Part shown: positions 4,342 through 26,343 of the stretch, one piece after another | How positions within the stretch are numbered: the stretch's first letter is position 1 | How the letters are laid out: the number at the start of each line of letters is the position of its first letter | Assembly (NCBI GenBank): GCA_040221175.1 | Contig: JAVJVK010000001.1 | Span: 248,001 to 312,000, forward strand | Source of the DNA: Phycisphaerales bacterium | Lineage (GTDB): Bacteria; Planctomycetota; Phycisphaerae; Phycisphaerales; UBA1924 | Direction of reading: 5' to 3' | DNA: 64,000 bases | Position numbers and translations under genes: made by a program | The notes under the pieces: model-generated | Database searches by the model: none | What the model was told of the DNA's origin: nothing | The model's input: only the letters and a program-made list of their open reading frames with translations

Positions 4342-6832
4342 CCACGCCCTCCTCGTCGGGCACGAGTGGCTCGCCCTCCAGCGGTTCTTCGATGCCCATC
4401 TGCTCGCGCTGCATCCGCAGGCGCAGTCGGTAGGCCTCGTTGATGGCGTCCGCCTCTTCGGCGTTCTCGACGATCACGGGCGTGATGAAGATGAGCTGCT
4501 CGGTACTGCTCACCCCGGTCTCGCGAGAGCGGAACAGCCACCCCAGGATCGGGATGTCGCCCAGCAGCGGCACCTTCCGCACGACCTGCGAGTCCTCGTT
4601 TCGCAAGATGCCGGATATGACCAGGGTTTGTCCGCTACGGACGATGAGCTGCGTCGTCGTCTCGCGACGATCGACCACGACTTGACCGCTGGCGTTGGAT
4701 TGTCCGGGCGCCACCGAGCTGAGCTCGATGTTTACCCGGAGGTCCACGTCCTTGTTGGGCGTCAGGCGAGGCCGCACGCGCAGCTGGATGCCGACCGCGC
4801 GATACTCGAAGCCCTGGGTGGTTCCGCCGCTGTCGGTCGTCTGGGCATTGGTGATGAACGGAATGTCCTGCCCGTCGAAGAACTCCGCTTCCTGATTGTC
4901 GCTGGTGAAGATGATCGGCCGGCTCAGGATGCTCACGTCCGTACGCTCGTTGAGCGCCTGGAGCACGGCGTTCAGATCGACGCCGACGTTCAGCACGCTG
5001 GTATCGAACAGGTTGCCGAACACGCCGCTCTCACTCGCCGTCGTGCTCGAGACGAACGAGATGGAGTTGTCCGTTCGGCTGAGGTTGATCGGAGAACTCG
5101 ACCACCGGAGGCCCAGGGCCTCGGCATCATCGCGGCTCACTTCGGCGATGACGGCCTGGATAAGCACCTGCCGGCCCGGTTGATCAAGCTGCTGGATGAG
5201 ATCGACCACCGCGGCTCGATACTCGGGCGGACTGAGCACCATGATCGCGTTCTGCCGCCACACGGGCACGATGCGGAGCTTGCCAATCAGGTTGCTCGCG
5301 CCGCTGTTGTCGGTTTGCTCGCGGGCGGTCTGCCACCAGAAGGTGATGCTTCCCGGATCATTCTGGGTTTCGGTCGTCGCCGTATCTTCGGCGTCGCTGG
5401 CAAAGGGACTCGAACCGGCGCCAGCGCCGCTCGTCAGCCCGCTCTCGCTCCGCGGGATGCTCGCAAGCGTGCCATCGAGGGCCAGCAGCGCGTTGAGTTG
5501 CTCGGCAACTTCCTCGGCCGACACGTGCTTGAGCGAGACGATCGCGGGCAGCCCCACGCTCTTGGGCTGATCCAGGTCCTTGATGATCTGATCGATGACT
5601 GCCAGGTTGTCCGGGCTCTTTGCAACCACGGCGATCTGGCCTGCCGAGGGAATCGCCTCGAATGCGAACTGTCCCGCCAGACGGCCCACGCCCTGCGACG
5701 AGCCCGAACTGCCCTGATTGGCCTGGTTGCCCTGCCCGCCACCGCCGCCGGCCGCCGCAGCGCTCGGCTCGCCAAACAAGCCAACAAGCAGATCTCGGAC
5801 GGCGATCGGATCGCTGTTCTCCAGCGTGTAGATCCGCGGCGTCACGGTTTCTTCGGGAAGGGGCAGATCCCATTCGGTCTCGATCAAGTCGGCGATCTGA
5901 TCCATGACGCCCTGCTCGGCAGCGACCGTCACGCCATTCTGCTGGGTGTTGGCGGTCACGCGCAGTTCGGCTGTCGAAGCGCCACCGCTGCTCTCTTCCT
6001 CGCCGCCGCCGCGACCGAAGAAGCGGTTGAAGTTGCGGCCACCCTGCTGCTGATTCTGCGTCGTCGAACTGCTTTCGCCAAACAATTCGGTGATGTTCTC
6101 CGCGATGAGTTCGGCATCGGCGTATCGAAGCCGGAACGTCCGCGTCACCAGTGCCCGAGAGCCCGGCTGGTCCATACCCGCCAGCAGGCCCTCGATTCGC
6201 CGGAGCAGACCGATGTTGCCCAGTACGGCGATGTGGTTGCTTGCCTCATCCACCGTGATCTTCGCGTACTCGGGCACGACGTCGCCGAGGGCCTCGGCCA
6301 GTTCCGATGCTTCCGAGTTGCTGATGCGATAGATCTTCTCGGCCATCGACCCGAGGTCGGTGCGGTCCATCACGCTTTCGCTGGGGCCGATGACGGGCAC
6401 GTCCTGCCGTATGACTTCGTTGATGTCTCGGAGGATGATGATGTCTTTGGTCTCGACGATGGCCACGCCGTCCTGCTGAAGCGCCAGGATGACCAGATCC
6501 AGCGCCTGCTGCCGCGGAATGGGCTGATCGCTGACCAGCGTGATACGCGCTGGAAGCCGCATCTCGGGAACGATCACGACCTTCCCGGTTGCCTCGACGA
6601 TGAACGGGATCAGGTCTTCAATCGATGCGTCGCGGAACGACAGCGTCGTCGGTGGGCCGTTCAGCACGCGGCGCCCGTCGGGGCCACGCTCCACGGCCGG
6701 CGCTTCCTGGCCGTCGTCTGCCTGCGGCTCAGCGTCCTGTGAGCCGAAGGCGGGAACCGCAAGCCCCGCTGCACACACCAGGGCGAGCATCGCCGATCGG
6801 GTCGTCCGGCTGCAACGAATATCCGCATTCAT
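4322..6832 (-). CDS. gspD: Type II secretion system secretin GspD
   Basis: An 836-residue outer-membrane secretin. A signal peptide (about residues 1-30, ending in VPAFGSQ) is followed by N0 and N-domain repeats (STTLSFRDASIEDLIPF-like start; later TFRLRYADAELIAENI and TPRIYTLENSDPIAV). Gln/Gly/Ser-rich linkers separate them. The C-terminal secretin domain carries the diagnostic VPLLGDIPILGWLFR. ATG 6832 has GAGG about 9 nt upstream. It is distal in the operon, after gspE to gspM, whereas in proteobacteria gspC-gspD usually come first. It forms the channel through which folded exoproteins leave. Confidence 0.95.
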   Translation of the reverse strand: MNADIRCSRTTRSAMLALVCAAGLAVPAFGSQDAEPQADDGQEAPAVERGPDGRRVLNGPPTTLSFRDASIEDLIPFIVEATGKVVIVPEMRLPARITLVSDQPIPRQQALDLVILALQQDGVAIVETKDIIILRDINEVIRQDVPVIGPSESVMDRTDLGSMAEKIYRISNSEASELAEALGDVVPEYAKITVDEASNHIAVLGNIGLLRRIEGLLAGMDQPGSRALVTRTFRLRYADAELIAENITELFGESSSTTQNQQQGGRNFNRFFGRGGGEEESSGGASTAELRVTANTQQNGVTVAAEQGVMDQIADLIETEWDLPLPEETVTPRIYTLENSDPIAVRDLLVGLFGEPSAAAAGGGGGQGNQANQGSSGSSQGVGRLAGQFAFEAIPSAGQIAVVAKSPDNLAVIDQIIKDLDQPKSVGLPAIVSLKHVSAEEVAEQLNALLALDGTLASIPRSESGLTSGAGAGSSPFASDAEDTATTETQNDPGSITFWWQTAREQTDNSGASNLIGKLRIVPVWRQNAIMVLSPPEYRAAVVDLIQQLDQPGRQVLIQAVIAEVSRDDAEALGLRWSSSPINLSRTDNSISFVSSTTASESGVFGNLFDTSVLNVGVDLNAVLQALNERTDVSILSRPIIFTSDNQEAEFFDGQDIPFITNAQTTDSGGTTQGFEYRAVGIQLRVRPRLTPNKDVDLRVNIELSSVAPGQSNASGQVVVDRRETTTQLIVRSGQTLVISGILRNEDSQVVRKVPLLGDIPILGWLFRSRETGVSSTEQLIFITPVIVENAEEADAINEAYRLRLRMQREQMGIEEPLEGEPLVPDEEGVDASEPG

Positions 6833-6846
6833 GAAGTAACCTCGCT

Positions 6847-7377
6847 TCAGCCATCCGCCGACGAGCGATCGTCGCGATTCGGAATTACCACTCGATCCCG
6901 GCCCATGAGGGGCACGTCAAACTCGATTCCCCGCCACATCACTCGGATCGACCAGGGGGCCGACGCTTCGAGCACGCGAAGGTTGTCGTCGTTTCCCTCA
7001 CCGACCGCCAGGATCGTCTTGTCGTCAAACAGCACCTGCCCGTTCACGAAGGCCACGACCTTCGGTCCCCCGTACGTACTCGGCGCAGGCGGTGGCGATG
7101 GCGGTGGTGGTGGGGGAGCAGGCGGCGGTGGTGGTGGCGGTGGCGGCAGAGGGGGAGGCGGCGCACCGGGAACGAAGAACGGCGATCGACCATCGAGCTG
7201 CGCCCGATACCGCGCCGTAACATCGCCCAGTTCGTTGGTCGCGCCGACACCGGCATCCGCCTCGGGCAGCGAGAGCGTCGCCGAGCGAGCGATGCCGCCC
7301 AGCCCGACGATCAGTGCCACGCTCGCCGCAACGCCGGCGGCGCCGACGAGCACCCATGCCGAGGTTGGTGCACTCAT
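6847..7377 (-). CDS. GspC/PilP-like inner-membrane protein with polyproline linker
   Basis: A 176-residue bitopic protein: short cytoplasmic start, one membrane helix (about residues 7-29), then a nearly pure proline tract (about residues 72-101). A small C-terminal domain follows (FVNGQVLFDDKTILAVG...IEFDVPLMGRDRVVIP). This layout matches GspC, whose periplasmic HR domain contacts the secretin N0 domain. The C-terminal domain looks HR/PilP-like by its short strands, but similarity is too weak to be certain. It overlaps gspM by 4 bp and precedes gspD by 14 bp. The long proline tract would act as a stiff spacer across the periplasm. Confidence 0.6.
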   Translation of the reverse strand: MSAPTSAWVLVGAAGVAASVALIVGLGGIARSATLSLPEADAGVGATNELGDVTARYRAQLDGRSPFFVPGAPPPPLPPPPPPPPPAPPPPPPSPPPAPSTYGGPKVVAFVNGQVLFDDKTILAVGEGNDDNLRVLEASAPWSIRVMWRGIEFDVPLMGRDRVVIPNRDDRSSADG

Positions 7378-8009
7378 GACGCGCTTCCCCCCGTCCGCCG
7401 GGCCGTCGTGCCGAGCGCCCAGGCCTCGACCGTAAGCGTCGCCGAAACCTGGCGGGAACCATCATCGGCACGCCGCACGATCACGCGCGTGACGGCAGCA
7501 ACGTCGGCGTTCGCCTCCAACGCGCCGAGCACCTCGCTGAACGCCTCGGGCGAGGCGTCGAAGCTCACCGTGCTGACCAGCTTCACGAGCGAGCCGCGGC
7601 CCCCGTAGTACTGCGTCGCCGGCCCATCAGCCAGATTCTGCTCGGTCGTTTGCGTCCGAGCTCCGGTCACGCCGGCCTGCCGCAACGCAGTATCCACGGC
7701 ACGGTTCAAGGCCGTTGCCCGCTCGCTCCGTGGCCCGGGCAACTCGATGGGGCCGTGCATGCGCGAGCCCAACGCGATGCGCTGCTGGTCGTCCTGCGCC
7801 TTCTCGCCCATGGCGCGAACCGCCCGGATGCGCGCCGCCATCGCGTCGGCGCGTCCAGATGCATCCACCGTTACGTCGACGACGGGTTCAACCAGCAGGA
7901 AATATCCGGCCAGGCCCGCGACAGCCCAGACCAGCCAACGCCCAGCCCGGGGCAGCCGGCCATACCACGCGAAGCGATCGGCGCCAGTCTTGGCTTTCGA
8001 GTGACTCAT
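7374..8009 (-). CDS. gspM: GspM-like T2SS assembly protein
   Basis: A 211-residue bitopic inner-membrane protein. A basic N-terminus precedes one membrane helix (about residues 25-42, WLVWAVAGLAGYFLLV). A coiled region and a small ferredoxin-like C-terminal domain (LVKLVSTVSFDASPEAFSEVLGALE...VSATLTVEAWAL) follow. The fold, length and position after the gspL-like gene fit GspM, which pairs with GspL. It overlaps both neighbours by 4 bp. Sequence identity to known GspM is not obvious, so the assignment rests on topology and gene order. Confidence 0.65.
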   Translation of the reverse strand: MSHSKAKTGADRFAWYGRLPRAGRWLVWAVAGLAGYFLLVEPVVDVTVDASGRADAMAARIRAVRAMGEKAQDDQQRIALGSRMHGPIELPGPRSERATALNRAVDTALRQAGVTGARTQTTEQNLADGPATQYYGGRGSLVKLVSTVSFDASPEAFSEVLGALEANADVAAVTRVIVRRADDGSRQVSATLTVEAWALGTTARRTGGSAS

Positions 8010-9778
8010 CCGCCGCTCCCAACTTCACGGTACCGAGCGATCAACTTGTCGGCCTCTTCCTTGAGCCTTGCACGGGTCTCCGCGTCATTCTTCTCATCGC
8101 GCGAGGCGCTGTTGCGGATGCGCCACTGATTCAGCAACTCACCACGATCCAGGGCCGCAATGTCAGCGTCCGAGATCGGTGTCGGTACCCCATCGACGGA
8201 GGCCGGACCGCGCTCGCTCGTGGGCCTGCGATCGCCCGACGCGTCTCGGCCGCCCTCGATCGCACCGTCACGCGACGCCCGTTCTTCCGTGCTGCGAGCC
8301 GACGAGGGCCCCGAAGGCCTTCCGCGACTCGTTGACGTGCTCGCCGCGGCAACGATGGGCGTGGCCGTGTTGCTGGCGCCCTCGCCATACAAGACCTCGG
8401 CCAAGGGCATGTCGGCAAAGTCCATCGGCAGGTTGCCCCGAGCCGTGGCGTTGCGGACGCGCGCGGTCACCTGAAACTCGACCGAATCGCCAACGATCTC
8501 ACGGCGAACGACCGTGACCGATCCCAGCGTCCCGAGTTCATTCAACGCGGACTCATACCTCGTAAGCAGCGTTTCGGGTGGGTTCTCCAGCGTCGGCCCC
8601 CCCGGCGCCACTTGGACGAAGCCTTCGATGTCGATCTGAGCGTTGCTGTCCATGCGGACACTCTCGAGCACCACGTGCACCGGAGCGGCGGCGCTCACCT
8701 CGGCAAGCATCTTGCTCATGGGCCATACGCGCTCGTTGAGCTGTCCGTAGATCGCCGACAGCCGCGCGTCGGCTTCGTATCGTTCACGCAACGCCTCGGC
8801 TCGACCAACCTTCGAAGTCAAAAGCATCTCACGGGCCTTCGCGCTCAACAGCGGAGCGAATAACAGAACGAGCAGGCACACGATGCAGGCCAGCACGACG
8901 TGGCGTCTCGAAGACAGCCACGAATTCACGCGATCGCCGACCCCCTTGCGCTCGGCGGGTTGGTCGCGTCGCAAGCTGGCAAGGGCGCGAACGGTGCCGT
9001 CCGGATGCACCGCCAGCATGCCGGCGCAGACCGCGACGAACGTGCGCGAAGCTTGCGAATCTGTCTCCGACCAGCCTCGAACCAGACGCGACAGCGACGC
9101 TCCGATTTCCGGTGACCACCCAACGCGGCGGCCTTCCCAGGGCGATGCAGCCGAGCGAAGCGTTGAGCGCACCTCGTCCTCATGCAACCCCACGGCCGTA
9201 GCGGCCTCACGCAACCGCTGCTCGACGTGGGCATCCGTCGCGACGACGTCAGGCGACTCTCGAAGCGAGCGCACGATCATGCCCTCGGGGCCGCGGGCTG
9301 CGACGATCAGCACGCCCGACTGGGCATCGCTGCCAAACACGCACCCCTCGGCCAGCGAGACGGCCAGACCAAGGGCTGCCGGTGCCGTCGAGTACATGGA
9401 GCCATCGTCGACGCCGCCCGACTCATCCGCTGTTGGCATCCAGGCCGTCAACAGCGCGGTTCGGCCTTGACCCTCGACCGGAACGGCACCACACCCCCGG
9501 CGATGAGCCGGGACTCGCTCGGGCAACTCACCATCACCGAGGATCTGGAGCACGCTGGCAAGTTCTTCAACAGGAAGATCATCGACGCCTCGGCAACGAA
9601 CCAGGGAACGCTCCCAGGGCGCCACCCGGACGAGCGGCACCCCATCGAAGTCGCCGGTCGTCGACAGCTGATAGCCGTCGCCGCGTCGCTCGAGCATGAC
9701 GCGAACGTCGTCGCCGTCGTTCTGACGGTCAAGCGCGACCACGCGCTGGCTGGGCTGTGTCTCGCGTTGCCTGGCCAA
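8006..9778 (-). CDS. gspL: GspL-like T2SS protein (actin-like cytoplasmic domain plus PilN-like part)
   Basis: A 590-residue protein. About 290 N-terminal residues form a PilM/GspL actin-like cytoplasmic region. One membrane helix follows (near residues 294-314, VVLACIVCLLVLLFAPLLSA). Then come a coiled stretch and a PilN-like ferredoxin domain (PVHVVLESVRMDSNAQIDIEG), and a charged Ser/Arg-rich tail. The likely start is TTG at 9778, preceded by GGAAGGGG about 8 nt upstream; no ATG occurs until well inside the conserved region. GspL recruits the GspE ATPase to the membrane. The assignment uses architecture and position between gspK and gspM. Confidence 0.7.
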   Translation of the reverse strand: MARQRETQPSQRVVALDRQNDGDDVRVMLERRGDGYQLSTTGDFDGVPLVRVAPWERSLVRCRGVDDLPVEELASVLQILGDGELPERVPAHRRGCGAVPVEGQGRTALLTAWMPTADESGGVDDGSMYSTAPAALGLAVSLAEGCVFGSDAQSGVLIVAARGPEGMIVRSLRESPDVVATDAHVEQRLREAATAVGLHEDEVRSTLRSAASPWEGRRVGWSPEIGASLSRLVRGWSETDSQASRTFVAVCAGMLAVHPDGTVRALASLRRDQPAERKGVGDRVNSWLSSRRHVVLACIVCLLVLLFAPLLSAKAREMLLTSKVGRAEALRERYEADARLSAIYGQLNERVWPMSKMLAEVSAAAPVHVVLESVRMDSNAQIDIEGFVQVAPGGPTLENPPETLLTRYESALNELGTLGSVTVVRREIVGDSVEFQVTARVRNATARGNLPMDFADMPLAEVLYGEGASNTATPIVAAASTSTSRGRPSGPSSARSTEERASRDGAIEGGRDASGDRRPTSERGPASVDGVPTPISDADIAALDRGELLNQWRIRNSASRDEKNDAETRARLKEEADKLIARYREVGSGG

Positions 9779-9800: not shown

Positions 9801-11126
9801 CTATCGGAATATCACGTCTCGGATCACGACGGGAAGCCGCGACCGATCCACGGTAGCAATCATCTCGACGCGCGTCCCGGACGCTTCATCGATACCCACG
9901 CTGCGAATCACAAAGACCGAACTACGAAAGCCAAAGACCTGCATCAGTTCCTGCACCCTGCCGCGCGTCAGGCCGGGTACTTCCAGCAGGTCTGTTGCGG
10001 TGCGAAAGCCCAGGGGCCGCCCCGCACGCTCGCGGATGATCGTATCGGCGATCGAACTGGTGACCCCCGGTGCATACGCGAGCGTGTCTTCGGAGACGGT
10101 GTTGATGTTGATGCGCCCGGGAATCAGTGGTCCGGAGGCGTCGAGCCAGGTGCCGTCGATGGCTGCTTCTTCCAGCAACAGCCCGATCTGTTCATCGTTC
10201 AGCGGCTGGGCGCGTGCGTCGATCGGCTGACCGGTCAGGCCCGGAAGGGACCGCAGCGGAGTGGTAATCAGCGTCTCGAGCGCCGCGGCGTTCGTGCCCG
10301 CGTACTGAGCGATCACGTCGGCCTGTTCGGCCGTGATACCCACGCGACCCACCAGTTCCCCGCCGCCGAGCCCAAGGCCCAGCCGGACGCGAGGCTGGCC
10401 CGAAAGCCCATAAGTACTCTCGCTGCTCACCACCGTCAGGATGCCCGACCAGCCAGCTTCCAGCACGCCGTCTCCGTTGTCCGGCGGCCAGGTTTCATCA
10501 CCGTCGTTCTCGTTCGGGTCGAGCACGTTGTTGAGGTTCCAATCCTCCTCGCGCGCGTCAATGGGCAGAATGCCCAGAATGAGCTCGAGTTCTTCGATCG
10601 ACTGCATCGGGCCGTTTCGTGGCTCGTATGCGTGCTCCTGAGACAAGTACGAGCCCACCTCGGCCCCCAGCGGGCTCACCTCATCGTCCGCATCGGTCCA
10701 ATCGATGATCCGCGAGATCAGGTCCTCGGTCATGTTGGGCAGCCAGAAGAGGTCGTCGGCCGTCATTCGCGCAATGTTGATCCGGGCGCTCGCGTCGGCG
10801 GGGCCGTCGAACCGTTCTCCGCCCTCCCAATGCTCGATGCGATACGAGCCGCTCGTCCCGATCGTCCCCCGGGAGGCCTCGGCCATCCGGTCGTAGACGT
10901 CGTATGCGTCGGTCGGATGCGGATCTTCGGTGTCGTCGGCCAGGATCGCAACCATCTGTTCTACGCCCGAAACCGCGGCCCAGCGAGCGCGAACTTCCGC
11001 GAGGCTATCACGTGCACCAAAAGCCTGGCCCAGCCCCGCTGACTGCACGCCCAGCACGAGCACCGCCGCGAGCCCGATGACCCACAGCGCCAGTACGGTG
11101 GCAAAGCTCTTGCGCGACCGCCTCAC
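9801..11126 (-). CDS. gspK: T2SS minor pseudopilin GspK
   Basis: A 441-residue pseudopilin. The N-terminal hydrophobic helix (SFATVLALWVIGLAAVLVLG) lacks the usual Glu5, as is typical of GspK. A large alpha-domain insert follows, and the C-terminal part has helix-hairpin-helix signatures (PGRININTVSEDTLAYAPGV and LLEVPGLTRGRVQELM). The start is GTG, overlapping the gspJ stop in GTGA (11123-11126). The residue before the helix is Ser, not Gly, so prepilin-peptidase cleavage may be less efficient or differ. GspK caps the pseudopilus tip with GspI and GspJ. Confidence 0.9.
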   Translation of the reverse strand: MRRSRKSFATVLALWVIGLAAVLVLGVQSAGLGQAFGARDSLAEVRARWAAVSGVEQMVAILADDTEDPHPTDAYDVYDRMAEASRGTIGTSGSYRIEHWEGGERFDGPADASARINIARMTADDLFWLPNMTEDLISRIIDWTDADDEVSPLGAEVGSYLSQEHAYEPRNGPMQSIEELELILGILPIDAREEDWNLNNVLDPNENDGDETWPPDNGDGVLEAGWSGILTVVSSESTYGLSGQPRVRLGLGLGGGELVGRVGITAEQADVIAQYAGTNAAALETLITTPLRSLPGLTGQPIDARAQPLNDEQIGLLLEEAAIDGTWLDASGPLIPGRININTVSEDTLAYAPGVTSSIADTIIRERAGRPLGFRTATDLLEVPGLTRGRVQELMQVFGFRSSVFVIRSVGIDEASGTRVEMIATVDRSRLPVVIRDVIFR

Positions 11127-11818
11127 GGTTCGTCCCCCTCGCTCGCGGCTTCAATCTCTGCCAGCGTGGGCTGCGCAAACACTCGCGGCAGTGCCGCCAC
11201 GCGCCGAGCCACGGCCGTGCCACGGCCATCAGGCGTCGCGGTTCGCACCTCGATGACGACCATGTGGGGCAGTCCATTCTGGTCCGAATCCCAAGCCGCC
11301 CACACGCCATCGGCGTCCGCCGCCGTCACGGAGAAGCTCACAACGTCGCGAGCGATTTCGCTGGTCACGCCGCCCGCGTCCTGATACTCGTCAAAGGCCA
11401 TGTCCACCCGGCGCCATAGCGAGGATCCCTCCGCCCCGCCGCGGATCCTGAACCCAACCTCGAACTCGCCTCCCTCACTTTCGAGCGCCGCGTTGTCCAC
11501 GGGCCGTACGGATTCGAGGCCGCGTGCAATCAGGTAGATCGAGTCTTGCGAGATCTCACCTCGGCCACCATCGCGAATGACCAGCCGTGTCTGCGACAGG
11601 TCCTGCCGCCGGACGGTCTGAAGCACCGCTCGCTGCACCATCTGGGCGGCCTGATCCGCGCTCGCCCAGGCGCGCGCGTTGGCGCGGGACGCCTGCCGGG
11701 CTGAGGCTAGACGCGTGACCGACGTCGCCACAAGCCCCGTGATCAACGCAATCACGCCCGCCGCCGCCAGCGTTTCGATCAGCGTGAAGCCACGGAAGCG
11801 TGGGCGGGCAGGCGTCAT
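11123..11818 (-). CDS. gspJ: T2SS minor pseudopilin GspJ
   Basis: A 231-residue prepilin-like protein with the type III signal RFRGFTLIETLAAAGVIALI: cleavage after Gly, Glu5 present. Length and the C-terminal pattern (SFSVTAADADGVWAAWDSD, then HMVVIEVRTATPDGRGT) fit GspJ. I chose ATG 11818 because it sits 8 residues before the cleavage motif; the longer in-frame extension only reads the previous gene out of frame. It overlaps gspI and gspK by 4 bp each. Confidence 0.88.
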   Translation of the reverse strand: MTPARPRFRGFTLIETLAAAGVIALITGLVATSVTRLASARQASRANARAWASADQAAQMVQRAVLQTVRRQDLSQTRLVIRDGGRGEISQDSIYLIARGLESVRPVDNAALESEGGEFEVGFRIRGGAEGSSLWRRVDMAFDEYQDAGGVTSEIARDVVSFSVTAADADGVWAAWDSDQNGLPHMVVIEVRTATPDGRGTAVARRVAALPRVFAQPTLAEIEAASEGDEP

Positions 11819-12252
11819 CGGTCGATAGCCTCGGGCGGCTGGCGGTTCGGGTCGGGCTCGTCGCCCAGCCTCGGCGCAATGAGTGCGTCGAGTTCGAAAG
11901 AACGCGGCTGACCCGTCGCAGATTGCCATGTCACGCGAACTTTTACTTCATCGGCCTGGCCCGCCCCTCCCGAATCGATGTCGACGCGATACTCGAACCG
12001 CTCAAAGGGCTCGCTGGCCCGGCCGCGGGACCGCAGCACGCGGGTGTATTCCTCCGTGCCATAGGCATAGATCGTCGACATCACCTCGTCGGCAACCATC
12101 CCTGCCTGGCGCAGGGACGCAGCCTCTCGCTGCATGGCCAGGGCCCGCGTCGAGACCACGAGGATGCCCCCCAGCGCCACGCCGAGCAATACCGTGCCGA
12201 CGATCACGTCGACGAGCAGGAAGCCCCCAGATCGGCGATGCCGCGCTACCAA
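11815..12252 (-). CDS. gspI: T2SS minor pseudopilin GspI-like
   Basis: A 145-residue pseudopilin with the N-terminal motif SGGFLLVDVIVGTVLLGVAL: Gly at -1 and Asp rather than Glu at +5. Length and position between gspH and gspJ fit GspI. No ATG is available, so the start is probably TTG 12252, with GGAGAG upstream and a 7-bp overlap with the end of gspH. The Glu5-to-Asp change keeps the negative charge needed for pseudopilin assembly. Confidence 0.8.
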   Translation of the reverse strand: MVARHRRSGGFLLVDVIVGTVLLGVALGGILVVSTRALAMQREAASLRQAGMVADEVMSTIYAYGTEEYTRVLRSRGRASEPFERFEYRVDIDSGGAGQADEVKVRVTWQSATGQPRSFELDALIAPRLGDEPDPNRQPPEAIDR

Positions 12253-12782
12253 GGCGTGCTCTCCATGCCAGTGGCATCAAGGTCCACCCGTCCAGGCGGC
12301 TCGATCAGCCGATCACCCTCGACGACCACCGCACGCAGCGCCCCTGGCATGAGCGCCACGCTCACTGGGCCGCTGCCGCCAGCAAGCCCGATCTCGACGC
12401 TCGAACCAGCACCGAGTTCAACGATCCACGGCGAACCCCGCTGGGCCATGCCATTCACGTAGACCGACTGCACCGTGGCACGGTTCAGGACCGCCGGCGG
12501 CATGAACGGGTCGCGCTCCCAGACCCAAGACTCGAGTCGACCCTGTTCGACCAACGCTCGGCGCTCGATTGCCACGCTCTTGGCGTCCGCTCGCACGCGC
12601 AGCGGCTGCGATCCGACGGCCGATCGACCCGCGGCATTGGAGAGCAGGCCCGCGATCGCGTCCGCCTCGGCCGTCACGCCGCGCCCCGCCAGGGTGGCTA
12701 CGCGCGGCACCGTCAGGCCCAGGATCAGGCCCACGATCACCAGCGTGACCACCAGTTCGACCAGCGTGAAGCCGCGGTGCAT
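12246..12782 (-). CDS. gspH: T2SS minor pseudopilin GspH
   Basis: A 178-residue pseudopilin opening directly with MHRGFTLVELVVTLVIVGLI: a very short leader, Gly -1 and Glu +5. The globular part is all-beta as expected of GspH. ATG 12782 leaves a 3-residue leader; the longer reading frame upstream is shadow of gspG. It lies 35 bp after gspG. Confidence 0.87.
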   Translation of the reverse strand: MHRGFTLVELVVTLVIVGLILGLTVPRVATLAGRGVTAEADAIAGLLSNAAGRSAVGSQPLRVRADAKSVAIERRALVEQGRLESWVWERDPFMPPAVLNRATVQSVYVNGMAQRGSPWIVELGAGSSVEIGLAGGSGPVSVALMPGALRAVVVEGDRLIEPPGRVDLDATGMESTPW

Positions 12783-12817
12783 CGATCCTCCAGATCCATC
12801 ACCCCCGATCCGAGTGA

Positions 12818-13249
12818 TCAGGGCTTGATGATGTCGGCATCCTCGCCCTCGCCGCCCGGCTGCCCATCGGCGCCATAGCTCACGATGTCGAAGTCCGTGT
12901 TCTTTTCGCCCGGCGCCACGATGATGTACGGATTGCCCCACGGATCGATCAGCATCTCGTCGTTGCTGATGTACGGCCCGTTCCACGTACCGCTCATCCC
13001 GCTGGGTTCCTTGCGAAGAAACTCCAGCGTCCCCGTGTCGGGCAGCTTGCCCATATCAATCAGGAACACCTGGACCTGCCCGGCGATGCTCGCGGCGTTG
13101 CTCTCGGCGGTCGCCTGGCGGCTCTGGCCGATGCGGCTGAACAGTCGCGGCACGACCACGGCCGCGATGATCCCCATGATCGTGATGATCACCAGCACTT
13201 CGATGATCGTGAATCCCCGCCGGCGACGGCGCGTTTCGTTCTTCTTCAT
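12818..13249 (-). CDS. gspG: T2SS major pseudopilin GspG
   Basis: A 143-residue major pseudopilin. The leader is short and very basic (KKNETRRRRR), then GFTIIEVLVIITIMGIIAAV with Gly -1 and Glu +5. The C-terminus carries the GspG signature: WGNPYIIVAPGE, then SYGADGQPGGEGEDADI, the calcium-binding loop. ATG 13249 was preferred because it precedes the basic leader by the normal distance. It lies 36 bp downstream of gspF. It forms the body of the pseudopilus. Confidence 0.95.
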   Translation of the reverse strand: MKKNETRRRRRGFTIIEVLVIITIMGIIAAVVVPRLFSRIGQSRQATAESNAASIAGQVQVFLIDMGKLPDTGTLEFLRKEPSGMSGTWNGPYISNDEMLIDPWGNPYIIVAPGEKNTDFDIVSYGADGQPGGEGEDADIIKP

Positions 13250-13285
13250 GTCCGCTCCATGCTCATGCCTGCTCGTATACATCCA

Positions 13286-14539
13286 TCACATCGCGTTTCC
13301 AGCGACGTCCTGCAACTCAAGCATCGGAAGCAGGATCGCCAGCACGATGAAACCCACCACGCCCGCCATCGTGACGACCAGCAGCGGAGGAAGCAGCGTC
13401 GTCACCAGCTTCAGCGTGGCCTCGGTTCGCTCTTCCATGGCCCGGGCCGCATGGCCCAGAAGTTCTTCCAGCCGCCCGCTTCGTTCGCCCATGGCCACGA
13501 TCTGGACCAGCATGGGCGGAAAGTAGCCGCTCTGCTCCATGGGCGTCGCCAGGGTCTTGCCCTGGCTCACCTGGCTGACCACGTCGTCGATGACGTTCTC
13601 GAGCGCACGATTGCCCAGCGTTGCCCGCGTGATACGCAGCGCCTGGAGCAAGCTGATGCCAGAACCCGTCAGCGTGCCCAGCGTCCGGGTGAACCGACTC
13701 ACCGCCACGTCGCGAGCCAGCAAGCCGATCAACGGCGTGGCCAGCAACGCCCGATCCATGCTCAGCCGTCCCTCGTCGCTGCGCCGCATCGCAACAAAAC
13801 CGGCTACCAGAAAGCCCAGCAACGCCAGGATCAACCACCACCAGCCCAGCACGAGATTCGCAAAGCCCTGCACGACCAACGTGGGCCATGGCAGGTCGTC
13901 GATCGCCCCTGCGGCCTCTTCGAGGATCTTGGGCGCAATCACGGTCGATACCAGCACGATCGACGCAAGGCACAGCACCAGCAGCAACCCAGGATACGTC
14001 GTTGCGCCCACGAGCGCGCGCTTCAGCCGCACGTCGCGCTCCAGAAGGTCGGCAAGCTGGCCAAGCACCTCGGCAAGCTTGCCAGATGCCTCGCCCGCAC
14101 GCACCATGTTCACGCTCAGGTCGTTCGCAAGCTCGGGCGAGGCCTCCAGCGCGTCGGCAAGGCCCCGACCATGCTCGACCTTCTCGATCACCCGCTCCAT
14201 CACCGCACGCTGCGCCTTGCTCTTGCGCTGCCGGGCGATCAAGCGGAGTGCTTGCACCAGCGGCAAGCCAGCATCCAGGCCAGTCGACAGCTCTCGAATG
14301 ACCGCGGCCCGCTGCGTACCGCTGAAACGGCCACTCAAGAGCGAGAAGCCCGCCGAGGACGCCGGCTCGTCGGAAGCCGCCGAACCAACCTTGGTCGAAG
14401 CCGAGAACGCATCCATTGGCTCGACGACCAATGGCGTCAGTCCACGACGAGACACTTCGCGGATTGCCGCGGCGCGCGTGGGCGCGTCGATGATCGGAGC
14501 GTCGCCACCGCCGGCGCACTGCACGCGAAAGCTCGGCAT
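13286..14539 (-). CDS. gspF: T2SS inner-membrane platform protein GspF
   Basis: A 417-residue polytopic protein with the two T2SSF repeats: the first around LSTGLDAGLPLVQALRLIA (near 85-103), the second around LGTLTGSGISLLQALRITR (near 290-308). Each is followed by MVRAGEASGKLAEVL or MGERSGRLEELL. Three hydrophobic segments include LLLVLCLASIVLVSTVIAP and the C-terminal LLVVTMAGVVGFIVLAILLP. The ATG shares one base with the gspE stop (TGATG at 14541-14537), so the two are translationally coupled. Confidence 0.94.
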   Translation of the reverse strand: MPSFRVQCAGGGDAPIIDAPTRAAAIREVSRRGLTPLVVEPMDAFSASTKVGSAASDEPASSAGFSLLSGRFSGTQRAAVIRELSTGLDAGLPLVQALRLIARQRKSKAQRAVMERVIEKVEHGRGLADALEASPELANDLSVNMVRAGEASGKLAEVLGQLADLLERDVRLKRALVGATTYPGLLLVLCLASIVLVSTVIAPKILEEAAGAIDDLPWPTLVVQGFANLVLGWWWLILALLGFLVAGFVAMRRSDEGRLSMDRALLATPLIGLLARDVAVSRFTRTLGTLTGSGISLLQALRITRATLGNRALENVIDDVVSQVSQGKTLATPMEQSGYFPPMLVQIVAMGERSGRLEELLGHAARAMEERTEATLKLVTTLLPPLLVVTMAGVVGFIVLAILLPMLELQDVAGNAM

Positions 14540-16185
14540 CAGTCGGCATCCTCGAGCAGCATGTCCGTGCCGCTGTCCTGCGTTGCGCGAAGGACCTCAC
14601 CCACGGTCGTCAGTCCCTGCGATGCCTTGATGAGGCCGTCACGCCGCATGGTCTGGTGCGTCGGGTGCGCCGTCTCCAGGAGCTTTTGTGCGTTGACACG
14701 ATCGCCAATAGCCGCACGCATGGCGCGCGTGACCGTGAGCACCTCGTAGAAGCCGATTCGTCCCTTAAAGATCGATTGGCCGGCATCGTGCGAGTCGATC
14801 GCCTCGCCGGTCGCTTCCGCGAACAACTCACGTTCTTCGGGCGTCAGCCGAAGCATCTCGGCATCGGTCGGGCGATGCGCGAACGCATATGGCTTGGCCA
14901 GCCGCCGTCCCAACCGCTGAGCGATGACCGCCTCGAGTACGCTGGCAAGCAGGAACGGCTCGATGCCCATGTCCAGCATTCGGCCCACGGCGCTTGCCGC
15001 ATCGTTGGTGTGCAGCGTGGACAGGATCAGGTGGCCCGTCATCGCCGCACGCACCGAGATCTCCGCCGTCTCGCCATCGCGAATCTCGCCCACCATCACC
15101 ACGTCGGGGTCCTGACGCAGGATCGATCGCAATCCCGATGCAAAGCTCAATCCACGCTTTGGATTGACCGGAATCTGGTTCACGCCCTCGAGCTCGTACT
15201 CCACCGGATCTTCGATCGTGATGATCTTTTTCCGCGGGTCGTACAGCTTGCTGAGCGCGGCGTAGAGCGTGGTGGTCTTGCCCGAGCCCGTCGGACCGGT
15301 GACCAATACCATCCCGTGCGGAATCGCGATCAGGCGATCGATCTCGCGCCGGTCCGTCTCACGCATCCCCAGCGTCGTCAGGTCCAGTTGCAGGCTCTGC
15401 TTGTCCAGAACGCGCATCACGATCGATTCGCCGTAGATCGTCGGGGCCGTCGAGACACGGATATCGATCTTGCGGCCGTCGAACCGGAGCGTGATATGGC
15501 CATCCTGCGGCGCATACCGCTCAGCAATGTTCATCCCCGCCATGATCTTGATGCGGCTGGTGATGGCCGGCTGCAAGCGCTTGGGCGGCGGCTGCTGCTC
15601 GACCAGCACGCCGTCGATGCGGTACTTGACCTTCAAGTCACGCTCGAATGGCTCGACGTGCACGTCGCTGGCGCCAAGACGGATCGCTTCCAGGATCAGC
15701 AGGTTGACCAGGTTGATCAGCGATGGCTGCTCGGCCATCCGGTGCAGGTCTTCGGCCTCGATCGATTCGAGGTTGGCCAGCACCTCTTCGTCGCCGCCGC
15801 CCATGCCCAGGTTGGCGGCCATTGCGGCGGCCGTGGTGCCATACTCACGCTGGACGAGCGCCCGAAATGCCGGCTCGGCAATCGCGACCGGCGTGACCGG
15901 CCGACCGACGATGAGCGAGGCCTCGTCCGCCGAGGCCCAGTCCGACGGATCCAGCATCGCAAGCGCGATGCGGCCCTCGCGCTCGCCGATGGGCGCGGCA
16001 TGCAACCGAGCCACATCGTCGCCACCCATCAGGCGCGAGATCGCACGCTCCACCGACGGCGCCTCGGTCAGCAATGCCGGCCCCGCTTCGACAGCATCAT
16101 GGCCACCGCCCGACGGGGGGTGGTCGACGTGCCCATTGCTCGAGCCTTCGCGCGTATCACGGCCTGTCAGCGTCGTCCGGTCCAA
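14539..16185 (-). CDS. gspE: T2SS traffic ATPase GspE lacking the zinc tetracysteine motif
   Basis: A 548-residue hexameric ATPase. Walker A GPTGSGKT lies at 297-304, the Asp box near 323-330 (ITIEDPVEY), Walker B DVVMVGEIRD at 361-370 and the His box HLILSTLHTNDA at 385-396. The segment between LGRRLAKPYA and FKGRIGFYEV (about 425-480) normally holds two CxxC pairs of the zinc-binding subdomain; here it has no cysteine. The first available start is TTG 16185, with GGAGG 10 nt upstream. The TGA of the upstream gene is in the same frame only two codons earlier. Confidence 0.93.
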   Translation of the reverse strand: MDRTTLTGRDTREGSSNGHVDHPPSGGGHDAVEAGPALLTEAPSVERAISRLMGGDDVARLHAAPIGEREGRIALAMLDPSDWASADEASLIVGRPVTPVAIAEPAFRALVQREYGTTAAAMAANLGMGGGDEEVLANLESIEAEDLHRMAEQPSLINLVNLLILEAIRLGASDVHVEPFERDLKVKYRIDGVLVEQQPPPKRLQPAITSRIKIMAGMNIAERYAPQDGHITLRFDGRKIDIRVSTAPTIYGESIVMRVLDKQSLQLDLTTLGMRETDRREIDRLIAIPHGMVLVTGPTGSGKTTTLYAALSKLYDPRKKIITIEDPVEYELEGVNQIPVNPKRGLSFASGLRSILRQDPDVVMVGEIRDGETAEISVRAAMTGHLILSTLHTNDAASAVGRMLDMGIEPFLLASVLEAVIAQRLGRRLAKPYAFAHRPTDAEMLRLTPEERELFAEATGEAIDSHDAGQSIFKGRIGFYEVLTVTRAMRAAIGDRVNAQKLLETAHPTHQTMRRDGLIKASQGLTTVGEVLRATQDSGTDMLLEDAD

Positions 16186-16191
16186 GGTTGC

Positions 16192-17430
16192 TCAGCCTCC
16201 CCCGAACTCGCGGAGCACTTCGTCGGCATCGAAGCCCGACTCGCCCACCTCGGGCATGTTCTCGATCTGCTGGGGCGTCAAAAGGCCCCGCACACGCTCC
16301 ACGAATCGCTCATCCAGATCCTGGCGAGCCTGTTCGGCTTCATCAACCTCGGTCGAATCCTGCCCCCAGCCCCACCAGTTCATCTGGTCGCCGGACTGTT
16401 GCTCGTCGATCGCCTTGGCCCAGCGATCGTTGATGGGCGATGCCTCGCGCTCGTAGCTTTGCCGAATGGCCTCCAGGCTCTCACGCTGCTCGGCCGTCAG
16501 ATCATCGAGCTTGCCTGCCGCCTCGATCTGGCGCTCGGCCTTGCTCTGTCGGTACACGGTGGGCCACGTGCGGCGCTTAACCTCCCGGTCCCACGCGCCC
16601 TGACGGTCGGCAGGCAGGACCTGCATGATCTGGCGTGCGTAGCGGGCGTTGATCGCCTTGCCCTGCGCTCCCAGTTCACGCATCTCGGTCATCGCTTCCT
16701 GCATCTTCGTCATCGCGTCCTGATCAAAGCCCATCGACTCGTCGTCGTCGGCCATGTTCTTCATGCGCTCCATCTGCTCGCGCATGAACCCGTACGAACG
16801 GTCGATCAACCGCTTGTAGACCGGATCGATCTCGGCCTCATACGCGAGCAACGCCTCACGAGCGGGTTCATTGCCCAGGACCTCGACCTCACGGGCAATT
16901 TCACGCAGGTCGATCGTTCCGCCGTTGACCACGCTCATCTGGCCGGCAGTCTCGACCTTCTCGCGCCTGCGGGCCCGCTCGACCCTGACAAAAGCCTCCT
17001 GCTGGCCCGGCTCGATGGCGATCATCCGAAGGTCCTCGAAGAACGTCTCTTCGAGGGCCTCCACGCGTTCAAAGAAGCCCAACATGATTTTGCCCATGGG
17101 CTTCATCATCTTCTGCCAGTCGCCCGTCTTGCCCGCTTCCTCCTGGAGCCTCCGCATGGCATCCATCAGGGTGTCGTTGGCCTGCTTGAACTTGTCCAGA
17201 TAGTCCCGGTGCAGCATCTCGGCGGTTTCCTGCTGCACCTCGTCGAAACCGAGCAACTCCGAGTACCGGTCGACGGCCGTTCGCCCGATCGCCATCTGCA
17301 TGGCGTCGTTGCCCATGCCCATGCCGAACTGAGCACGAGCAGGGCTGGCGCTCAGGAACACGGCCAGGAGCATACCGATCACAACCCATACGGATGTCCG
17401 TGATGCGCCGCCACACATTGCCATCTTCAT
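16192..17430 (-). CDS. Secreted helical protein, paralog 1 (LTxxQ, Spy/CpxP-like pattern)
   Basis: A 412-residue protein with a signal peptide (about 1-34, ending SPARAQ) and otherwise almost entirely charged amphipathic helix. It shares ordered blocks with the next two genes: YSELLGFDEVQQETAEML, LEETFFEDLRMIAIEPGQQ, WPTVYRQSKAERQIEAAGKL, and a final LLTPQQIENM. LT-P-x-Q ends recall the Spy/CpxP periplasmic family, but length and repeats differ. ATG 17430 has GGGGAAG 8 nt upstream. Its stop lies 6 nt before the gspE start, so it is very likely in the same transcript as the secretion system. Function unknown. Confidence 0.7.
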   Translation of the reverse strand: MKMAMCGGASRTSVWVVIGMLLAVFLSASPARAQFGMGMGNDAMQMAIGRTAVDRYSELLGFDEVQQETAEMLHRDYLDKFKQANDTLMDAMRRLQEEAGKTGDWQKMMKPMGKIMLGFFERVEALEETFFEDLRMIAIEPGQQEAFVRVERARRREKVETAGQMSVVNGGTIDLREIAREVEVLGNEPAREALLAYEAEIDPVYKRLIDRSYGFMREQMERMKNMADDDESMGFDQDAMTKMQEAMTEMRELGAQGKAINARYARQIMQVLPADRQGAWDREVKRRTWPTVYRQSKAERQIEAAGKLDDLTAEQRESLEAIRQSYEREASPINDRWAKAIDEQQSGDQMNWWGWGQDSTEVDEAEQARQDLDERFVERVRGLLTPQQIENMPEVGESGFDADEVLREFGGG

Positions 17431-17574
17431 GTCGCTTCCCCTACGTCAACCACCGCGTCGCCCGCGAGCGGGGCGTATCGAGCCGGCAGCCAGATCCCAC
17501 TTCCTTCTTTGGGATGATCGCCAAGGGGTTGCACCCCGAAGCGAGCATTCCATGCCCTCCGCTGATCCTACGGC

Positions 17575-18783
17575 TTACCGGGGAGATCGGATCGTCCGAC
17601 TCTCGCTCGATCCGGGCGTGAACTCGAATCGCAGCTCCGACTCGGCCTTGGGCAGTTCGGCCAGTTGCTCGGCTCGAAGGATCGACGTGAGCTTCGATTC
17701 CAGCCGCTCGTCGAGCTGCAACACGGCCGCTTCGGCCTCATCGCTCGGCGAAGGGTCCTGTCCGTGCACCACCAGCACGACGCCCGGTGGCAGCCGATCC
17801 TCCGCTTCACGCTCCCGCTCGGCGACCACCCACCGATCTCGCGCGGCGGCAACGTCCCGCTCGTGCTGATCGGCGGCGGCTTGCAGTTGATCCCGTTGCG
17901 CCTCGTCGAGGGTCGCCAGGCCCATGGCGGCTTCGAGTCGACGCTCCCCGCTGGTCTTCTTGTACACACGCGAATACGCCTGCCGAAGCCAGGCCGACTC
18001 GACCCGATCATGCTCGAGCACGCCCGCCAGCGTTCGGACCGCCTGCTGACCTGCCGTTGCGATCCTGGCGTCCAACGTCCGAAGAGGTTCGTACGGATCC
18101 TCCTCGCCATCAAAAATGAACACGCCACCATTGAAGCCGGGGCCGCCGCCGATATCTTCGGCCTTGCGCATCCGTTCGACCAGCAGACCATCTACGTGGA
18201 CCGCCCAGCGTTCCAGCACCTCGGTAACGGCGGGTTGCCCATACGCGTCGGCAAACTCGGTTCGCACCAGATCATCCAGATCGACCCGCGCCTCGGATCG
18301 CGTCAGCGAGCCCAGGTTCTTCGCCCGACGGTGGATGCGTTCGGCTTGCTCCCACAACACGTCCTGCTCGGGGGACAACATCGCCCGCATATCGCGAAAC
18401 AGCGTCTGCTCGAGTTCCGCAACCGCCGACTGGTGAGCGCCATTGACTTCCTTCATGCGGGCCATCATGGCCCCGAAGTCGCCGTCGGTCACCTCTTTCC
18501 GGGCGGCTTCCAGGTCCTGTCGCAACCTGTCGTTCAACTGCTGGCGTTGGTCGGCAAATTCCTTGAACATCTCGAACGCGACGTCGAGTTGGATCTCGTC
18601 GAGCCCCAGCACTTCGCCCATCCGCTGCATGGTCTCTCGAGACAACGCCCGGCCACCCCGATGCACCCCGCCGGGCGCACTCGTGGACGTAATCATGACA
18701 GTGTCTCCCTGCTGACCGAGTGCCGGCGTGCCAACTGCCAGACCCAGGCCCACGATCGCCACGCCCCCGAGCTTCAGTCGCAT
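17575..18783 (-). CDS. Secreted helical protein, paralog 2
   Basis: A 402-residue protein with a short signal peptide (about 1-24, ending TPALGQ) and long charged helices. Blocks matching its neighbours: MGEVLGLDEIQLDVAFEMF, LEQTLFRDMRAMLSPEQD, then YSRVYKKTSGERRLEAAMGL with an LDEAQRDQLQAA continuation, and a final ILRAEQLAEL. ATG 18783 has a strong site (AAGGAGG, 8 nt spacing). A Gly-rich, acidic insert (FNGGVFIFDGEEDPYEP) sits mid-protein. A 144-bp gap to paralog 1 shows no convincing terminator. Function unknown. Confidence 0.68.
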   Translation of the reverse strand: MRLKLGGVAIVGLGLAVGTPALGQQGDTVMITSTSAPGGVHRGGRALSRETMQRMGEVLGLDEIQLDVAFEMFKEFADQRQQLNDRLRQDLEAARKEVTDGDFGAMMARMKEVNGAHQSAVAELEQTLFRDMRAMLSPEQDVLWEQAERIHRRAKNLGSLTRSEARVDLDDLVRTEFADAYGQPAVTEVLERWAVHVDGLLVERMRKAEDIGGGPGFNGGVFIFDGEEDPYEPLRTLDARIATAGQQAVRTLAGVLEHDRVESAWLRQAYSRVYKKTSGERRLEAAMGLATLDEAQRDQLQAAADQHERDVAAARDRWVVAEREREAEDRLPPGVVLVVHGQDPSPSDEAEAAVLQLDERLESKLTSILRAEQLAELPKAESELRFEFTPGSSESRTIRSPR

Positions 18784-18896
18784 ACCGATGCCTCCTTCAG
18801 ATAGACCAGGACGACGCGCCGCACCACTCCCAACAGGTGGATGCGCCGCGTCGTGATTGCCGTCAGCGAGGCCCTGGTCTGCTGGCCAGCCGACGA

Positions 18897-20120
18897 TCAG
18901 AACTCCCGCTGTCGAGACCGCTGCTGCTGGCGATCACCACCGCGGCCCGCCGGACGGGCTCGATCACCCCGCCCTTCTCCCTCATCGTCGGCGCCGATGG
19001 CCGCCTCGAGCTTCCCGGCCTGCTCCTCGGTCAGCACCGCCCTGATCTGCTGTACCGTCTGGTCGACCACGTCACGCTTCTCACGGAACAGCTCCCGCGT
19101 GCCGTCCTCGTTTCCCCGGCGCCCACCACGCATCATGTCCCGAAGGCTCATGTTGACTTCGTTGCTCTCGATCGTGTCGGCAAGCTTGCGGTTCACCTGA
19201 TCCATCCGGCGGCTCGTCGAGAGCGCAATCGCCTCGATCTGCTCGCGCTGGTCGCCGCTCAGGTCTTCCAGGCCCCTGGCCGCCTCGATCGCCCGGTCGG
19301 CCCGGTTTTCGCGATACACCGTCGGGAAGCTCGCTCGACGCACGGCCGATTCAAGCTCCGGGAGCTTCTCCCGCGGCATGATGGCCTCCAGCCTCCGGGC
19401 AAACGTGCGGTGCGTATCCCGGACGCGCACGCTCGCCTCGCGAGCGCTCTCGAAGTGGCTCTGCAAGGCCTCGAAATCGCGCTGGCGGAACATCTCGATG
19501 CCTTCCTCGAACTTGTCGTTCCGGGCCATTAAAGCTCGATCCAAGGCAAGCTCGTAGTCCGCCAGGACGGTTTGAGCCTCAGCGGCCGGCTCGCCCTCGA
19601 GTTGCAGGCCTTCCACGATCTCGAACAGGTTCACTCGCTCGCCGCTCATCAGCCCCCGCGGCAGCGTCGTCGCCCTGCGATGGGCCATCTCCACCTTGGG
19701 CCAGGCCTCGGCCTGTTCGGGCGTCAGCATGGTTTGCAAGTCCGCCATCAACTGCGATTCGAGCGTCTCGACACGCTCGCGGGTCTGCTCGCCCAGTTCG
19801 CGCAGGCTCTCGAATGCCGAGCGGTCGCGCGTCTCCTCAAACTCCTGGCGAGCCTTCTGGGCCGCGTCGCGCATGGTGTCCATCGTCGACTGCACGCCGT
19901 CGATGTATTCCTCGAGCATCATCTGGGCGATCTCTCGCTGATCGGCGTCCAGCCCCAGGATGTCGGCGTAGTCCTCGAGTTGCTCGCGGTTCACCTGCGG
20001 GCCCTGAGCCCCGCCGAAGCCGCCGCCCCCGCCGCCAAACTGGGCCAGGGTCGGCCGCGTCATCGCCAGCATCGCCACGCACGCACACCCGATCAGAATC
20101 CGATTCAATAGCCTGCTCAT
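18897..20120 (-). CDS. Secreted helical protein, paralog 3
   Basis: A 407-residue protein with a signal peptide (about 1-27, ending RPTLAQ), a short Gly-rich stretch (FGGGGGGFGGAQG) and then continuous charged helix. Shared blocks: YADILGLDADQREIAQMML, LESQLMADLQTMLTPEQAE, SFPTVYRENRADRAIEAARG with LSGDQREQIEAI, and a late IRAVLTEEQAGKL. ATG 20120 directly precedes the signal peptide; longer in-frame starts lie in the divergent panD gene region. It is the first gene of the minus-strand block that runs into the T2SS genes. An Arg/Gln-rich tail ends the protein. Function unknown. Confidence 0.68.
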   Translation of the reverse strand: MSRLLNRILIGCACVAMLAMTRPTLAQFGGGGGGFGGAQGPQVNREQLEDYADILGLDADQREIAQMMLEEYIDGVQSTMDTMRDAAQKARQEFEETRDRSAFESLRELGEQTRERVETLESQLMADLQTMLTPEQAEAWPKVEMAHRRATTLPRGLMSGERVNLFEIVEGLQLEGEPAAEAQTVLADYELALDRALMARNDKFEEGIEMFRQRDFEALQSHFESAREASVRVRDTHRTFARRLEAIMPREKLPELESAVRRASFPTVYRENRADRAIEAARGLEDLSGDQREQIEAIALSTSRRMDQVNRKLADTIESNEVNMSLRDMMRGGRRGNEDGTRELFREKRDVVDQTVQQIRAVLTEEQAGKLEAAIGADDEGEGRGDRARPAGRGGDRQQQRSRQREF

Positions 20121-20250
20121 CGTTGCCAGCCTCCAGATAAGGGGACGCACCGCGCCCACTCGGCCCAACGCCCGTGTACACCCGCTTATTGCCCGCATCC
20201 TCGACCGTCCACCCGGCCGGCCGGTTTCCCAACCCATACCATGGCTCCCC

Positions 20251-26240: not shown

Positions 26241-26252
26241 CTTGGTCTCTCC

Positions 26253-26279: not shown

Positions 26280-26343
26280 CATGGATTCACACAACAACAG
26301 TTCTGTCGATCCCGAACTTGCTGACCCGCGGATCGACGAGTCG

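Follow-up and report, generated by a model that had tools for sequence, protein, structure and literature searches.

Three paralogous genes preceding gspE in a type II secretion operon

The 64,000-nt stretch of Phycisphaerales bacterium contig JAVJVK010000001.1 analysed here (positions 248,001 to 312,000; hereafter the window) carries three consecutive genes, designated A, B, and C, directly ahead of the genes of a type II secretion system (T2SS). All three lie on the minus strand, in the relative order A, B, C, gspE (Table 1). An earlier reading of the letters alone (the sequence-only reading) had described three consecutive same-strand genes of 400-412 residues, the last ending 6 nt ahead of gspE. 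The open reading frames (ORFs) found encode 407, 402, and 412 residues, and the coordinates agree with the 6-nt gap, C stopping at 16192 and the gspE ORF starting with TTG at 16185. The longest ORF containing A extends to 20297. The downstream genes had been assigned to a T2SS, and Pfam matches to T2SSE, T2SSF, T2SSG, T2SSK, and Secretin with N0, together with a sub-threshold match to T2SSJ, support this assignment.

In a search of the window's own genome, A showed 30% identity to both C (E 3.8e-32) and B (E 1.8e-21), and the three-way alignment contained 53 invariant columns; on these comparisons the proteins are judged to be homologous beyond chance. Four shared motif blocks had been proposed. 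The first, L-G-[FL]-D-x-x-Q, was exact, whereas the other three were right in kind but one residue off: the second reads D-[LM]-x-x-M-x-x-x-x-Q in A and B (C differs, with DLRMIAIEPGQ), the third Y-[RK]-x5-R-x-[IL]-E-A-A, and the last L-x-x-x-Q. The proposed export of the proteins fits their N-terminal signal peptides: the family consensus ends in PAxAQ with Q27 nearly invariant, and by a crude pattern AxA↓Q follows a hydrophobic stretch in 60 of 103 family members. A cleavable signal peptide, as in the LTXXQ family, is predicted from these features.

Table 1. Coordinates of genes A, B, and C, the hairpin units of A, and the T2SS genes in the window
Feature	Position	Strand	Remarks
Protein A, lead copy	18897..20120	-	407 aa from ATG; three Spy-like units after a signal peptide
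A unit 1, residues 45-155	19656..19988	-	LDADQ ... LTPEQ pair
A unit 2, residues 165-264	19329..19628	-	Hairpin with degenerate motifs; CnrX is the nearest solved fold
A unit 3, residues 273-375	18996..19304	-	LSGDQ ... LTEEQ pair
Protein B, middle copy	17575..18783	-	402 aa, ATG; within the genus less conserved than A and C
Protein C, copy abutting gspE	16192..17430	-	412 aa, ATG; same triple hairpin in model
gspE	14539..16185	-	PF00437 E 8.8e-126; MshEN 3.5e-8
gspF	13286..14539	-	PF00482 E 2.2e-56
gspG, major pseudopilin	12818..13282	-	PF08334 E 1.7e-27
gspH-like, minor pseudopilin	12246..12803	-	N_methyl match only; named by position
gspI-like	11815..12252	-	Without Pfam support; named by position
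gspJ-like	11123..11929	-	T2SSJ E 0.0011, under its cut-off
gspK	9801..11126	-	T2SSK_1st E 6.9e-12
gspL/PilN-like	8006..9778	-	PilN E 1.1e-4 with profile A5
gspM-like, by position	7374..8009	-	Without family or PDB match
GspC-like, by layout only	6847..7377	-	N-terminal hydrophobic stretch, proline-rich linker, small domain; no family or PDB match
gspD, secretin	4322..6832	-	Secretin E 4.8e-47; N0 domain 1.3e-9
Spacer between A and divergent panD, 130 nt	20121..20250		Likely operon promoter site (inferred)

Each protein consists of three tandem helical hairpins

AlphaFold models were obtained for A (63 family members as input; pLDDT 87.5, pTM 0.82) and C (61 members; pLDDT 89.0, pTM 0.83). Both show three successive helical hairpins of ~100-120 residues, each made of two long helices and short capping helices, which bears out the earlier description of the proteins as almost wholly helical.

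The repeat was also examined at the level of sequence. The family alignment was cut at A residues 41-156, 157-272, and 273-382, and the three resulting profiles were compared. Local profile scores were 47.8 (units 1 and 2), 66.2 (1 and 3), and 45.6 (2 and 3), against maxima of 16.9, 13.7, and 12.7 in 60 column shuffles per pair and 18.8, 10.0, and 15.5 with reversed profiles; global alignments between the unit profiles were in register. A rotated-column control came nearly equal to the real pairs (up to 47.8, 65.8, and 44.6 in local mode) and was not counted as a null, because rotation preserves the homologous stretch. The repeat in sequence thus agrees independently with the models of A and C. 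Each protein is built of three tandem ~115-residue helical hairpins, a threefold internal repeat of the LTXXQ/Spy kind that the sequence-only reading had missed.

Relationship to LTXXQ proteins and to the CnrX fold

Units 1 and 3 contain two L-x-x-x-Q motifs apiece, the arrangement by which LTXXQ proteins, Spy and CpxP among them, are recognised. The motifs lie at positions 57/132 and 287/363 in A, a spacing of 75 and 76 residues, and at 61/136 and 292/369 in B; the spacing in Spy is similar. Among 63 aligned rows the Q columns of the four sites are kept in 60, 62, 59, and 60. At the first site the second motif residue is mostly D (46 rows); at the other three, T or S occupies this position in 50, 46, and 47 rows. 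C unit 1 has F and I in place of the motif L. The paired L-T-x-x-Q motif of the family is thus present in a form with a relaxed second position.

When the 63 members were scanned singly, PF07813 (LTXXQ) was the commonest Pfam match (18 members at E <= 0.05, best 8.1e-8), followed by PF13801 (Metal_resist; 11 members at E <= 0.05, best 1.6e-6). In whole-genome scans, PF07813 exceeded its curated cut-off in the gspE-linked copies of six genomes (G021, G024, G013, G008, G010, G016), and both ends of one protein passed it in G024 (contig C25, 28339-28617 and 29086-29337). The top PDB profile match was the Salmonella STV protein, a weak match (E 0.042) that falls largely on unit 3. A scan of the 63 members against NCBIfam gave scattered weak matches, each in at most two members.

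The models were compared with solved folds using a second-look aligner. The first 11 rows for A were all CnrX, STV, and NccX. The best match was CnrX, with Z 11.4 and a root-mean-square deviation (rmsd) of 1.9 Å over 107 residues on unit 2; STV gave Z 9.5, NccX Z 8.6, and Spy (6owx) Z 8.0 with an rmsd of 3.7 over 89 residues on unit 1. For C, the same three proteins occupied ranks 1-8 with Z 7.4-7.9, the CnrX/NccX group being closest to unit 1. As modelled, the units appear to share the four-helix hairpin fold of the CnrX/STV/Spy group, while the Z range of C permits a chance likeness. We accept this assignment because fold, motifs, Pfam, and profile comparison agree; Foldseek alone gives no match at E <= 0.001, and the fold reading draws on the second-look aligner together with the motifs and Pfam.

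The likeness of A unit 2 to CnrX also fits a role like that of CnrX or CpxP, in which the proteins would act in the periplasm as sensors or regulators of envelope or metal stress and so tune the operon. We consider this very improbable. His makes up a median of 0.7% of residues, and neither His nor Cys stands among the invariant or nearly invariant columns, although some Cys is present in the matched stretch of 72 of 103 members. The scan of window genes near the operon named neither a sensor kinase nor a sigma-factor pair. The proteins resemble the CnrX/NccX metal sensors, presumably linked to PF13801, in fold, but differ from them in that His and Cys are not conserved, a membrane anchor is generally lacking, and no linked sensor system was seen. 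Metal sensing was ruled out as the main explanation on account of the missing conserved His or Cys.

Separately, a 307-residue protein with two LTXXQ matches, both above the Pfam cut-off, is encoded at L121 7645-8568 (G040 contig C139), in a genome without this gspE lineage. It may link the single LTXXQ proteins to the triple form as an intermediate.

Co-occurrence with gspE and position in the operon

The distribution of the family was examined in 41 related genomes, with family members called at E <= 0.001 and gspE at >= 54% identity. Both were found in 28 genomes, and these were the identical 28; each of them has a family ORF immediately ahead of gspE on the same strand. Across 301 genomes of the order (family at E <= 1e-20, gspE at E <= 1e-145), the family was present in 178, representing 73 of 148 genera, gspE in 179, and both in 172.

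Six genomes had the family only (G500, G506, G554, G405, G487, G513), and these were searched for gspD. Four of them (G500, G506, G487, G513) carry gspD of this lineage (E 1.5e-280 to 3.6e-122), so that their gspE probably falls in an assembly gap; G506 even retains a gspE fragment. Hence, of the 301 genomes, only G554 and G405 were found to have a copy but neither gspE nor gspD of this lineage. The seven genomes with gspE only are G538 and six of genome family f6.

Adjacency was examined in 65 of the 179 gspE-positive genomes, namely those with coordinates among the matches listed, plus G538. In 63 of these loci gspE is immediately preceded by a copy, 57 from the main adjacency table and six others (G022, G462, G333, G329, G035, G039). 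In G424 the nearest copy is 1.4 kb from gspE, and in G538 gspE begins 292 nt from the contig end, so that adjacency there cannot be judged. The linked run holds one copy in 23 of the 57 loci, two in 13, three in 20, and four in one. Of 150 members listed, 113 sit in gspE-linked runs; copy numbers are under-counted because weaker members were outside the listed matches. Measured to the longest gspE ORF, whose true start codon may differ, 36 of 38 adjoining copies end within 108 nt of it or overlap it, six by 4 nt.

The earlier claims that the family is lineage-specific and physically tied to the secretion machine are both upheld by these data. Among 294 genomes sampled across the phylum, none outside this order yielded a full-length member; shorter proteins with one LTXXQ-like stretch occurred in one f6 genome and two genomes of family f73. 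The tie to the T2SS is strong. Physical linkage alone could make joint loss resemble dependence, a caveat countered by the unlinked copies, which are also missing where the T2SS is absent. The sequence-only reading had regarded homologs scattered without T2SS neighbours as evidence against the tie. This holds in part: unlinked extra copies do exist, but they were seen almost only in genomes with this T2SS.

The parallel presence and absence would also be expected if the proteins were cargo, exported by the machine and acting outside or at the cell surface, and the signal peptide, predicted solubility, multiple copies, and unlinked paralogs are in keeping with this. Cargo genes do not usually hold a set position at the front of the core operon of their secretion machine, and the fixed place of this family across whole families of genomes, with short gaps, is not easily explained in this way. 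The fold is moreover that of periplasmic chaperones and sensors. A cargo role therefore seems improbable.

Divergence of the paralogs

Within the genus, A, B, and C form three separate clades of seven rows each with support of 100, 100, and 98. Across families the copy abutting gspE switches paralog type, with at least 11 label changes on the tree, 7 of them forced by starred branches; the tree was built by a quick method without a mixture model, has long branches, and leaves 32 of 100 forks open. Between the window and locus L036, identity is 77% for A, 59% for B, and 83% for C, compared with 91% for GspE, 93% for GspG, 80-85% for GspH-J, 70% for L, and 73% for M.

These values bear on the possibility that the proteins are structural or assembly parts, either a periplasmic helical scaffold that keeps the secretin and pseudopilus aligned with the inner-membrane platform or, in a variant, a factor that helps to build the secretin or its cell-wall passage. 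Such a role explains the near-obligate presence equally well as the chaperone role proposed below. It agrees with the position directly upstream of gspE in nearly all loci examined, and A and C diverge about as fast as other T2SS parts. However, the number of linked copies varies from one to four, B diverges faster, the paralog abutting gspE changes between lineages, and the six f6 genomes have a related gspE without a copy. The proteins also have no membrane anchor as a rule, and the operon already encodes a protein of GspC-like layout. We regard a structural role as rather unlikely. Replacement of a missing GspC is likewise weakened by that protein, though it has neither a family nor a PDB match.

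Proposed role in type II secretion

Because fold and motifs, the tie to the T2SS, the tight coupling to gspE, the copy number, and the precedent of dedicated chaperones point in one direction, we tentatively favour the reading that A, B, and C are soluble periplasmic holdase or handover chaperones dedicated to the T2SS, a plausible assignment in which function is taken from fold. Chaperones of the Spy/CpxP kind had been one option of the sequence-only reading, beside T2SS cargo and spacers, and this option fits the fold and motifs. Each protein would be exported, lose its signal peptide, and then bind secretory clients that are still folding. Binding would be ATP-independent, in the holdase manner of Spy, with three binding hairpins within one chain where Spy uses a dimer. 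Clients would stay soluble until their release close to the pseudopilus or to the vestibule of the secretin. Joint expression with gspE would adjust the amount of chaperone to how many machines are present, and A, B, C, and the unlinked copies would share out the clients; the presence of one to four linked copies plus unlinked ones fits such client specialisation.

Several observations weigh against this reading. The Z of 8.0 between A and Spy was tied with that of an unrelated plant protein, Spy was absent from the list for C, whose best Z was 7.9, and Z values below ~13 in helical proteins, including the best of A at 11.4, may reflect a common arrangement only. Foldseek gave no match against the PDB at E <= 0.001, and A, B, and C of the window gave no PF07813 match at E <= 1. 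The six f6 genomes with a related gspE (50-53% identity) have no family copy, and at four of these loci the family profile found nothing at E <= 0.001. Furthermore, the net charge of the units is negative (median -5, -5, and -4 in 63 rows), in contrast with Spy, whose concave binding surface a passage of PMC8546600 describes as positive. The chaperone activity of A, B, and C, like any client of theirs, is putative.

The proteins resemble LTXXQ (PF07813) proteins in the signal peptide, the helical hairpin unit, and the paired L-x-x-x-Q ~75 residues apart in units 1 and 3. Spy, CpxP, ZraP, and STV-like periplasmic proteins are those that we take to be grouped in PF07813. In contrast to them, A, B, and C have three units per chain rather than one, ~400 residues, a middle unit that has lost the motifs, a negative net charge, and a place in a T2SS operon. 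PulS/OutS pilotins are helical periplasmic T2SS accessories as well, but they are lipoproteins; a pilotin was ruled out because a lipobox-like site beside the hydrophobic stretch occurs in only 6 of 103 family members.

Passages of PMC4713064 describe LipB and CpaB as dedicated periplasmic chaperones needed by T2SS effectors; Lif/LipB and CpaB are membrane anchored and encoded beside the effector, and the T2SS chaperones described there serve one or few effectors. By their proposed role, A, B, and C would be periplasmic helpers of type II secretion of this sort. They differ in being predicted soluble, in their fold, and in having the linked copies beside gspE instead of an effector. The N-terminal anchor of the Lif/CpaB type was not seen, a signal-peptidase-I type site following the hydrophobic stretch by pattern. 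For Planctopirus limnophila, a passage of PMC10632474 reports a T2SS-annotated operon with six planctomycete-only proteins. Phylum-specific genes of unknown function within a T2SS operon are thus a shared feature as far as that passage goes, while the present case concerns another lineage, with full-length members in this order alone in the 294-genome sample.

On a wider scale, a large branch of one planctomycete order may run its T2SS with a machine-encoded, single-chain triple-Spy chaperone that takes up clients in the periplasm and passes them to the secreton. Client handling would then be near-obligate for type II secretion in this lineage, which is possible but rather doubtful. It is still a matter of debate how the T2SS recruits its clients from the periplasm, and a chaperone-like family in the machine's own operon would, if this holds, give a direct handle on the question. 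A single-chain triple repeat would also be an unusual architecture for the Spy/CpxP/CnrX fold. No description of a T2SS with such a protein set was recognised among the titles and abstract openings of accessible literature on the T2SS, Phycisphaerae, and Spy/CpxP, subscription journals being mostly outside this scope.

Unlinked copies and a C-terminal domain in genome family f4

The window genome has two more paralogs in an unlinked tandem (G000 contig C4, 1088.6-1090.8 kb; L035 8609-11683). The scan there covered ten ORFs, one of the paralogs and nine neighbours; Pfam matches at E <= 0.01 were obtained for four of the neighbours, none of them a T2SS part. Comparison of 25 unlinked loci gave 16 groups of similar ORFs in at least three genomes, many of which are antisense ORFs or represent one syntenic locus of f4. 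The widest group, from six genomes, unites secreted proteins through short C-terminal domains. No partner gene was consistent across lineages in these 25 loci, not every neighbour group being identified. In f4, a GSDH gene lies near the unlinked copies in G027, G031, G035, and G039, which perhaps derive from one ancestral locus.

In the same four f4 genomes, all of which carry this T2SS, we observed a C-terminal domain of ~105 residues, here termed A6 (for example L057 16348-16665, L060 4837-5154, and L065 12261-12578). The four genomes hold 113, 119, 122, and at least 150 copies, and none was found in 18 other genomes searched. At 20 sampled loci, the 21 matches that cover most of the domain stop 0-7 residues short of the protein end, and by a crude pattern the proteins concerned nearly always have a signal-peptide-like start. 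The domain has no Pfam or NCBIfam match at E <= 0.01, and nothing recognisable as A6 was seen in listings of the accessible literature. A6 looks like a mass C-terminal sorting or secretion tag. An A6-domain gene lies within 6 kb of six of eight unlinked f4 loci, where ~0.31 would be expected per locus, and three of the six are one syntenic locus; none was present in the stretch examined at five gspE-linked f4 loci. The association with unlinked f4 copies is no more than suggestive.

Other features around the operon

The divergent panD lies 130 nt upstream of A, so that A is plausibly the first gene of the operon. A strong terminator with a separate promoter before gspE had been named as further evidence against the tie to the T2SS. 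A terminator scan of 15900-20400 found no site on the minus strand and one terminator-like site on the other strand, and a sigma-70 scan of the same region found no promoter-like site; such scans are weak evidence for this phylum.

For the gspL/PilN-like protein, a relative at L043:15214-17097 matches PF05137 at E 2.3e-10. Two minus-strand ORFs after gspD (3055-4341 and 1597-2928; 428 and 443 residues), neither with a Pfam match at E <= 1, possibly belong to the operon. Two closely similar secreted proteins with PEP-CTERM tails (PF07589 above cut-off) are encoded on the minus strand at 25665-26330 and 26620-27198, some 5.5 and 6.5 kb upstream of the T2SS operon. Similar PEP-type tails were recognised by eye in two proteins of the f6 genome G345 (L113 5044-6150 and 4236-5033), which lie 1.3 and 2.4 kb upstream of gspE.

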